DNA from: Bacteroidota bacterium
GTDB taxonomy: Bacteria > Bacteroidota > Bacteroidia > Chitinophagales > Saprospiraceae
Direction: 5' to 3'
Assembly (NCBI GenBank): GCA_024276375.1
Contig: JAJRXG010000243.1
Coordinates: forward strand, 1 to 38,084
Length of the DNA stretch: 38,084 bases
Below the pieces are notes generated by a model. The model did no database searches and was not told where the DNA came from. It was given only the letters and a program-made list of their open reading frames with translations. Of this stretch, positions 5,717 through 25,898 are shown piece by piece. The position numbers and the translations under genes are program-made. Numbering within the stretch: position 1 is the first letter of the stretch; each line of letters opens with the position of its first letter.

Positions 5717-5771
5717 GTTACTACTGAGGAGGGTACTTTTTAGCCAAAATGACTCCTACCTGAGGAGTAAC
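5717..5771. repeat. Short (55 bp) member of a palindromic intergenic repeat family
   Basis: GTTACTACTGAGGAGGGTAC…AGCCAAAATGACTCCTACCTGAGGAGTAAC matches the two ends of the 11868-12029 element, with the central part missing. Confidence 0.7.
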
Positions 5772-6413: not shown

Positions 6414-6884
6414 TTGGTAAAGGAATTGGAGGAGGCTATAGACCAAGGCGTTATTCTGAACAACAAGTTTAACAAGTCCATAAAATTCTTAAAAGCGAAG
6501 GCAAAGGATTACTATGGTATTTATAAATCAAAAGAGGCCGTTTATACCAGCAATGTATCCAATATCAGCAAGTATCAAAATCAGTTGGTATCAATCAGAC
6601 ATTGTCTTGTAAAGTACGAATTAGAAGTCGAAGACGTATATCGCGAAATCAGTAGAGTGAAGGAGTATTCCAATGTATTTGTTGCATATCGAGCCAATCT
6701 TAGGAGGGATCTCCATGAGAATGACAGCTTAGAGGATAGTTATACCTTCCTGAAGGGGTTCAAATCCAAGGTGATGATGATCACAAAATCCCTAAGAAGT
6801 GATCTGAGAAAAATCAGGAAAGAGTTGCTACAACTGGAGGAAGAGGAGCAAGCGGCCATTAACAAACTTAAAGCATCCATCTAG
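6414..6884 (+). CDS. Coiled-coil hypothetical protein (possible C-terminal part of the same ORF)
   Basis: Frame is open upstream through the A10 run and into 6013-6399; no good independent start (TTG at 6414). Continuous coiled-coil character. Confidence 0.55.
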   Translation: MVKELEEAIDQGVILNNKFNKSIKFLKAKAKDYYGIYKSKEAVYTSNVSNISKYQNQLVSIRHCLVKYELEVEDVYREISRVKEYSNVFVAYRANLRRDLHENDSLEDSYTFLKGFKSKVMMITKSLRSDLRKIRKELLQLEEEEQAAINKLKASI

Positions 6885-6994
6885 TGTGAGGAGATATAGT
6901 TATGTATATGCACTACAAGTGAGAGTTGACAAGGCATAATACGATCTGTAACAACGAACTCAGCTAAATTAGGTAATGGAATTGGGATGTTGGC

Positions 6995-7157
6995 GTGTGT
7001 ATAACAAATTGCATAAAATAGGATATTGCTCCGGTACGCCTCTGTCCTCATATGTTTAAGATCTCCTCATAAAGAGTCTCCCTTGATAAGCAAAACGAAT
7101 CAATCCTTTCCACACCATGCTTTTTCCAGCTATTAAAGTGCAATATGTTATACACAC
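6995..7157. mobile_element. MITE-like element, copy 1
   Basis: Perfect 12-bp TIRs GTGTGTATAACA (6995-7006) / TGTTATACACAC (7146-7157) flanked on both sides by the direct repeat ATGTTGGC (6987-6994 and 7158-7165). No coding capacity. Confidence 0.85.
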
Positions 7158-7210
7158 ATGTTGGCTTGATCTAAGAAGACGAATTATTTAATTGTATCTT
7201 CGCGCTTTTT

Positions 7211-8962
7211 TTGGAGGGGTACACGCCTTCTGATAGAAATATTAACGATCGGGACTTGTGTGAGCGCGAGATCCTGAACCACTACAATCATTTGGATTCA
7301 CAAACTACTTTTTCAGATTTAGGTCTTGACAACAATATTCTTGAGGCCTTAGAGGTGCTCAATTTTGTTACACCTACAGAGATTCAGCAACGCGCTATAC
7401 CCATTATGCTGGAGCAGGAGAGCGACATAGTCGGTGTAGCACAGACAGGTACAGGCAAGACGGCAGCATTTAGTTTGCCGATTATTCAAAAACTGGACAT
7501 GCAGGAGGCGCAACCTCAGGCACTGATATTGTCTCCTACTCGGGAGCTCTGTATTCAGATATGCCGGGATATCAAGGCCTATAGCAAGAAGAAGAAAGGG
7601 GTATCGACATTGGCTGTTTATGGAGGATCAGACATACGATCCCAGATTAAGTCGTTGGATCGAGGAGTACACATCGTAGTGGGGACTCCGGGAAGGACAT
7701 TGGATCTAATCAAACGGCGCAGACTCAATCTGCATGGGATCAAGTGGATTGTATTGGATGAGGCCGATGAGATGTTGTCGATGGGGTTTAAAGAAAGCCT
7801 TACGGAGATATTGGCGACGACTCCGGAGGAGAAGCAGACGATATTGTTTAGTGCCACGATGCCTCGGGATATCAAGCGGATCGCCAAGACTTATATGACA
7901 GATCCGATAGAGATATCTGTGAGCCATAAGCAGCGCTCTGCCAAGAACGTGCACCATAAGTATTTTACTATTCATCCTAAACAGCGATATAAAGCGCTGA
8001 AGCGGCTTGTGGATTTTCATCCTGATGTATATGGTATCATATTCTGCCGTACCAAGCGGGAGACACAGGAGGTAGCCATCAAGTTGAGTGCCGATGGTTA
8101 CAACAGTGATGCCATACATGGAGATCTCTCTCAGGCTCAGCGGGATCAGGTGATGCAGCGCTTCCGCAAAAAGCAAATACTACTTTTAGTTGCTACGGAT
8201 GTGGCGGCACGAGGCATCGATGTAAGCGATCTGACGCATGTGATCAATTTTAATCTTCCCGATAGCCTAGAGACATATGTCCACCGAAGTGGTCGTACAG
8301 GTAGAGCAAACAAAACAGGGGAGTCTCTGATTATAGTGAGTGATAAAGAAACATATCGTATTCGTCACTTGGAGAAGAAGTTTGACATAAAAGTAGAACG
8401 CGGCATCATCCCTTCAGGAATAGAAGTAAACAAAAAGCGAATTTTTGCGGAAGTGCAAAAACTAGAGGAAGCACAGATCGGGGTCCCCAATGATTTGAGT
8501 GCGATATTAGAGGAGGTGAAAGAAAGGCTTTCTGAAATGACTAAAGAGGAACTCATAGAGCGGTGGATCACCAGAGAATTTGCGGCTTCTTTGAAGCAAT
8601 TGGCACAGAGCGAGGATCTCAATATGGCTCCGAGCAAGAGTGGCGATCGTCGTAGCAGAAGAGACCAGTATACGCGTTCAGGTTCCGGCCAATATACAAG
8701 AGTCAAAGTAAATCTAGGACATAATAATCGGATCGCTCCTCGGGAACTGATTACTATGATCAATCAGAATACACGTGGAAAAAGCATACAATTGGGGCGC
8801 ATTGACATTGATCGTGCTTCATCTTACATCGATGTAGATACTACGCAAGTCAAAGATCTTCTCAAGGCATTTAAGAATACAACATTCAGAGGGCATAAAG
8901 TAGTAATGCAAACAGCCGGTGCCAAAAAGAAAACTCGTTTTAAGAGCTATAAGAAAAGGTGA
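7211..8962 (+). CDS. DEAD-box ATP-dependent RNA helicase with C-terminal DbpA-like RNA-binding domain
   Basis: AQTGTGKTAAFSLP, PTRELCIQI, TPGRTLDL, VLDEADEM, SATMP, RGIDVSDLTHVINFNLP, HRSGRTGR; C-terminus LGRIDIDRASSYIDVDTTQVKDLLKAFKNTTFRGHKV. Exact start uncertain (TTG 7211 or downstream). Confidence 0.95.
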   Translation: MEGYTPSDRNINDRDLCEREILNHYNHLDSQTTFSDLGLDNNILEALEVLNFVTPTEIQQRAIPIMLEQESDIVGVAQTGTGKTAAFSLPIIQKLDMQEAQPQALILSPTRELCIQICRDIKAYSKKKKGVSTLAVYGGSDIRSQIKSLDRGVHIVVGTPGRTLDLIKRRRLNLHGIKWIVLDEADEMLSMGFKESLTEILATTPEEKQTILFSATMPRDIKRIAKTYMTDPIEISVSHKQRSAKNVHHKYFTIHPKQRYKALKRLVDFHPDVYGIIFCRTKRETQEVAIKLSADGYNSDAIHGDLSQAQRDQVMQRFRKKQILLLVATDVAARGIDVSDLTHVINFNLPDSLETYVHRSGRTGRANKTGESLIIVSDKETYRIRHLEKKFDIKVERGIIPSGIEVNKKRIFAEVQKLEEAQIGVPNDLSAILEEVKERLSEMTKEELIERWITREFAASLKQLAQSEDLNMAPSKSGDRRSRRDQYTRSGSGQYTRVKVNLGHNNRIAPRELITMINQNTRGKSIQLGRIDIDRASSYIDVDTTQVKDLLKAFKNTTFRGHKVVMQTAGAKKKTRFKSYKKR

Positions 8963-11867: not shown

Positions 11868-12029
11868 GTTACTATTCAGGAGGGGTGCTTTTGAGATAAA
11901 AAAAGGCAATTTTTTCGTCAGATGACGCTTATTTTTTGAGGCATAGCAGCGCTACGGCGAAAAAAATAGCGGAAATATGACGGGGAAAGTGTTTTTTATA
12001 GCCGAAATGACGCCTACCTGAATAGTAAC
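11868..12029. repeat. 162-bp imperfect palindromic intergenic element (REP/MITE-like)
   Basis: Ends GTTACTATTCAGGAGG / CCTACCTGAATAGTAAC are inverted; nested inverted segments CGTCAgatgaCGCTtATTTTTTgaGGcaTAG–CAGCG–CTAcGGcgAAAAAAATAGCGgaaatatgACG. Confidence 0.8.
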
Positions 12030-25555: not shown

Positions 25556-25734
25556 CTTTGTGTATTAATAGTGAGACTCTAAGATATAAAATTATTGTTC
25601 TCATATACATGATCATTTTATAAATGTGCTCGGCATTTAGGAAAACATTACTGGGATCCTCCATCACCCAGTCCTGCAATGACGGAATAAGAAGAATGCG
25701 CGCCTTTCACCGAATAGTTACAGGAGAGTATATT

Positions 25735-25898
25735 GTGTATAACATACTGCACTTTATCAGCTGGCAATGCGTGGTGGGGAGGGATTGATTCATTTCGCTC
25801 AGCTCATCAAGGGAGACTCTATATGAGGAGTTCTTAAACATATGAGGACAGAGGTGTACCGGATCAATATCCTATTTTATGCAATTTGTTATATACAC
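25735..25898. mobile_element. MITE-like element, copy 2 (inverted relative to copy 1)
   Basis: Reverse complement aligns over its full length with 6995-7157 (e.g. TAACAAATTGCATAAAATAGGATATTG-TCCGGTAC-CCTCTGTCCTCATATGTTTAAGA-CTCCTCATA-AGAGTCTCCCTTGAT); ends GTGTATAACA / TGTTATATACAC. Confidence 0.85.

Follow-up and report, generated by a model that had tools for sequence, protein, structure and literature searches.

Structure and setting of the window element

The window, by which we mean the whole 38,084-nucleotide stretch of Saprospiraceae DNA analyzed here, harbors at positions 6995 to 7157 (plus strand) a 163-bp element with no open reading frame (ORF) of note. Its terminal inverted repeats are perfect over 12 bp and reach 19 bp if a single mismatch is allowed (GTGTGTATAACA[A/T]ATTGCA). 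The left repeat, GTGTGTATAACAAATTGCA, occupies positions 6995 to 7013 on the plus strand, and the right one, GTGTGTATAACATATTGCA in the minus-strand reading, positions 7139 to 7157. The element is flanked by two unstranded copies of the 8-bp sequence ATGTTGGC, the left one at 6987 to 6994 and the right one at 7158 to 7165, and the junctions read ...GGG ATGTTGGC / GTGTGTATAACA...TGTTATACACAC / ATGTTGGC TTGA.... An earlier note had described a miniature inverted-repeat transposable element (MITE) with perfect 12-bp inverted repeats and an 8-bp target-site duplication. This description is exact in the sequence and is borne out by dozens of dispersed copies in the genome. However, the span given there, 6987 to 7165, includes both duplications, while the element proper is limited to 6995 to 7157.

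Among inverted pairs spanning up to 400 bp, this MITE is the sole perfect 12-bp pair of the window whose flanks carry an exact 8-bp repeat, and no comparable combination was found in five mononucleotide shuffles of the window. Given its genome-wide copies, the element is far beyond chance.

Upstream of the MITE lies an ORF of unknown function without Pfam match (6414 to 6884). The downstream neighbor, which is not part of the MITE, encodes a DEAD-box RNA helicase with a DbpA RNA-binding domain (7211 to 8962, plus strand). Position 7211 is the start of the longest helicase ORF, a TTG codon whose use as start is uncertain, and the MITE ends 53 bp before this longest plausible start. The window also contains a second, older copy of the MITE, left out of the earlier note (25733 to 25898, minus strand, 166 bp, 86% identical), which carries one mismatch in each 12-bp end and has lost its duplication.

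Dispersed copies, target duplications and an empty site

A BLAST search of the genome from which the window derives, a draft of 3.85 Mb in 414 contigs that is 93% complete, returned 44 matches to the MITE, the window element being one of them and some being fragments. The near-full-length copies (n = 30) share a mean pairwise identity of 88% (81 to 99%) and have a consensus of 161 bp. With at most one mismatch allowed, the end pattern occurs at 119 places in the genome, compared to 12 for the reversed control. A 108-bp subfamily corresponds to the same element with an internal deletion. Since most of its full-length copies are 95 to 100% identical to the copy at L039, this subfamily looks younger, judging from sequence identity.

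Exact 8-bp duplications flank 10 copies and are nearly all of different sequence (for example, ATGTTGGC, CTATTGAA, GAAATTAC, GATTCCGA, GGCCTTGA, AAGCACCC, ATCTGGTG, and GTTGACCA), and 5 further copies have a duplication with one mismatch. Exact 9-bp duplications were found at 3 copies, all of the 108-bp form, and in many old copies the duplication is lost. Because the duplications differ between copies, ATGTTGGC is target DNA and not a part of the element. The earlier note had named the presence of ATGTTGGC in every genome-wide copy as grounds for rejecting an insertion, and this is excluded, as the copies carry their own 8- or 9-bp duplications. The occurrence of both lengths indicates that the transposase staggers its cut by 8 or 9 bp, and the perfect duplications of the 108-bp copies argue for fairly recent activity.

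An empty site could be read within the same genome. At L040, a 108-bp copy lies within another dispersed repeat, with AAGCACCC on both sides. In the paralogous repeats at L003, L020, L025, and L049, the site is uninterrupted and AAGCACCC is present once each, and the L040 flanks, when joined with a single AAGCACCC, align continuously to all four. Two other copies of the host repeat (L036 and L021) are diverged at the spot of the L040 insertion. This comparison directly shows insertion with target duplication inside the genome. For the window insertion itself, no empty site was readable in the six genomes of the genus, the flanks not being conserved.

Outside this genome, the same MITE body was found neither in the genus (6 genomes including its own) nor in 150 genomes of the family (including its own), and a search of plasmids, phages, and viral contigs gave no match to the MITE. 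At one end of the MITE, 22 to 34 bases match in 7 of the other genus and family genomes searched.

Complete insertion sequences with the same ends and the candidate driver

We found the end sequence GTGTGTATAACAWATTGCA in at least 96 stretches of a 257-Gb genome collection. Among the matches listed, nearly all come from Saprospiraceae or relatives, a few being labelled only Bacteroidetes or Bacteroidota. Similarly, GTGTGTATAACAAATTGCA recurs in many Saprospiraceae. The search for a full-length insertion sequence (IS) with the same inverted repeats, recommended in the earlier note, was successful in related genomes: Saprospiraceae contain complete elements of 1.28 to 1.5 kb bounded by GTGTGTATAACAAATTGCA-type ends, mostly with 8- or 9-bp duplications. 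The one in Phaeodactylibacter xiamenensis (L099 = L160) measures 1282 bp, with 21-bp perfect ends and the 9-bp duplication ATCCAACGC. The element at L095 (= L185) is 1530 bp long with the 9-bp duplication AGTGAAGAC, the one at L100 (= L159) is 1309 bp long and has no duplication, and none is present at the element of L096. A more distant element (L101, 777 to 2056) has GGGTGTATGACA ends and the 8-bp duplication CATTTCAA. Inverted repeats are perfect over 20 to 22 bp at L095, L099, and L100 and near-perfect at L101.

The main ORFs of the complete elements have the ISKra4 model NF033572 as their best match (E values of 1e-49 to 1e-54), with scores of 168 to 186 bits that lie below the NCBI curated cut-off of 205. 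At L095, L096, L099, L100, and L101, the transposase is encoded in two frames, ORF1 of about 70 to 76 and ORF2 of about 334 to 366 amino acids, and in all 5 elements examined the two overlap at a run of eight or nine A residues, a predicted -1 frameshift slip site.

Members of the Mutator-like prokaryotic transposase superfamily, whose hosts include Bacteroidetes, have inverted repeats of 18 to 39 bp, in which the terminal C is conserved, as well as 8- or 9-bp direct repeats, and a two-ORF transposase restored by a -1 frameshift occurs in the ISMich2 group only (PMC3942029). The window-type ends, 19 to 21 bp long with an outermost G/C and 8- or 9-bp duplications, resemble those of the ISKra4 family and its ISMich2 group (p-MULT 4, PMC3942029). 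The complete Saprospiraceae relatives further share with the ISMich2 group the two-ORF transposase, the A8/A9 slip site, and the match to NF033572, and thus appear, at the sequence level, to fit each ISMich2 trait examined. They score below the curated cut-off, and their ISMich2 placement is by traits rather than by tree. The window element, in contrast to ISKra4/ISMich2 elements, has no transposase gene.

We consider it very probable that the window element is a MITE moved by an ISKra4-family, ISMich2-like transposase. Both the MITE reading and mobilization in trans, as the earlier note had presumed, are supported by the dispersed copies with their own duplications, by the empty site, and by the complete IS elements that share these ends in related genomes. 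The MITE would have kept only the terminal inverted repeats recognized by an ISKra4-family (ISMich2-like, Mutator-related DDE) transposase. Supplied by a complete IS elsewhere, this transposase would bind the 19- to 20-bp ends, shift the 163-bp body, and insert it at a staggered cut, the repair of which by the host would duplicate 8 or 9 bp of the target.

Neither the two protein searches nor the family search detected an intact ISKra4 transposase in the assembly of this genome, which contains only a decayed ISKra4 fragment with stops (contig 37, about 15.6 to 15.8 kb). That an ISKra4-family transposase acts on the copies in this genome is inferred rather than shown, since the assembly has no intact copy of it. 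Multicopy IS elements are often missing from short-read assemblies. The driver may therefore be present yet unassembled, or it may have been lost. Beyond about 25 to 35 bp, the MITE body matches no complete IS found, so the comparison does not establish the MITE as a deletion product of any known element.

Two candidate drivers with matching ends were rejected. A 1433-bp element at L075 (= L147, 3570 to 5002) looked like an autonomous IS but carries an IS110-family transposase gene. The more likely reading is an IS110 element within an older MITE of this end type, with the 9-bp duplication GATCTTTGA on its flanks. The second candidate, the G055 copy (L084/L089), combines the ends with an ISKra4-like gene but is broken in its right half.

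A transposase of a different DDE family could also have mobilized the MITE, its ends resembling the ISKra4 type by coincidence. The lack of an intact driver in the assembly and a body that matches no complete element found would be in line with such a scenario. However, the shared end of 19 bases would be expected by chance only a handful of times in 257 Gb; among the matches listed (at least 96), nearly all are from Saprospiraceae or other Bacteroidota, the shared end bounds ISKra4-family elements, and the duplication lengths agree. We consider this scenario unlikely. Even less probable is that the repeat is not a transposon but a REP-like extragenic palindromic or RNA-coding repeat that serves the host as a hairpin RNA, terminator, or promoter. 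Both strands do fold stably as RNA (z scores of -5.4 and -4.1), but this stability stems from the terminal inverted repeats, and the body is variable, with 108-bp internal-deletion forms. Searches of the MITE region against Rfam and for terminators above chance were negative in the Rfam and promoter/terminator scans, and sigma-70-type promoter sites are not in excess (1 found, 1.5 expected). As the origin of the element, a host-function repeat is refuted, because transposition is evident from the empty site and from target duplications that are still fresh; a secondary role may exist if conserved positions yield transcripts.

The same scan bears on the helicase gene, whose promoter, according to the earlier note, the insertion may have altered. 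Nothing we found supports this: the single sigma-70-type site does not lie in the gap to the helicase gene. That the insertion was selected because it changed helicase expression is suggested by its closeness to the gene, but promoter-like sites are not enriched, and most copies with duplications are intergenic, upstream or downstream of their neighbors alike, a pattern expected if only harmless insertions survive. Selection through the helicase gene is therefore highly improbable in our view, and we retain the reading of a MITE moved by an ISKra4-family transposase.

Related repeats, compound units and known MITEs

The family described here is a new one of a well-known kind, and the general understanding of MITEs is unchanged by it. 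It resembles the IS982-derived MITE of the Cardinium endosymbiont of Oedothorax gibbosus in being a MITE of Bacteroidota spread by a related IS, but the IS family is another one, and intact parents are present in the Cardinium genome, while none is assembled here (PMC9769881). Like the MITE of Porphyromonas gingivalis, ours is short and non-coding, has inverted repeats, and resides in a Bacteroidota genome; unlike ours, the P. gingivalis MITE contains a minisatellite, and the likeness is one of description only (PMC4596501). Our literature search returned no report of a MITE for the ISKra4 family or of MITEs in Saprospiraceae. A likely driver can now be named for a repeat family overlooked by annotation pipelines. 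MITEs with such ends recur among the Saprospiraceae, which are common in water and sludge, and this also explains many contig breaks in these draft genomes.

Several of the GTGTGTATAACAWATTGCA stretches are MITE-sized pairs of 123 to 178 bp, and other Saprospiraceae have MITE families of their own, with lengths of 131 to 170 bp (L135, L136, L145, L155, L173, L187, and others). They have the same ends, bodies unlike that of the window element, and mostly 9-bp duplications. At L104 (1077 to 1920) and L101 (777 to 2056), we found related elements that have GGGTGTATGACA or GGGTGTAAGACA ends together with 8-bp duplications, and their sequences suggest that several end subtypes exist within the family.

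In the genome of the window, a palindrome-rich repeat (GGCTTTAGCC, GGGCTAAAGCCC, and CCCCGGTCTTTAGACTGGGG) is found inside the MITE or abutting it and forms compound units with it (L022, L028, L029, L048, and L061). At L022 (1261 to 1663), a whole 403-bp compound unit is located between 9-bp duplications (AATCCATGG), and at L028, a 330-bp compound unit is located between the duplications TGTGTGAG.

A broader picture, which we hold with about even confidence, would be that independent MITE families of 123 to 178 bp, with different bodies and the same 19- to 20-bp ISKra4/ISMich2-type ends, have expanded in several species across the Saprospiraceae. In the species studied here, the family would apparently have outlived its transposase and given rise to compound mobile units, built of a MITE fragment, a palindrome-rich repeat, and a MITE, with foreign repeat DNA transported between the ends.

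A second and more abundant MITE family, with GTTACTATTCAGG...CCTGAATAGTAAC ends, is also represented in the window, at 11868 to 12029 and, in a short form, at about 5717 to 5771. Its members are about 160 bp long, with a 55-bp form, and 199 exact ends occur in the genome. Members of this family with 8-bp duplications were found at L020, L021, L024, L036, L003, and L040.
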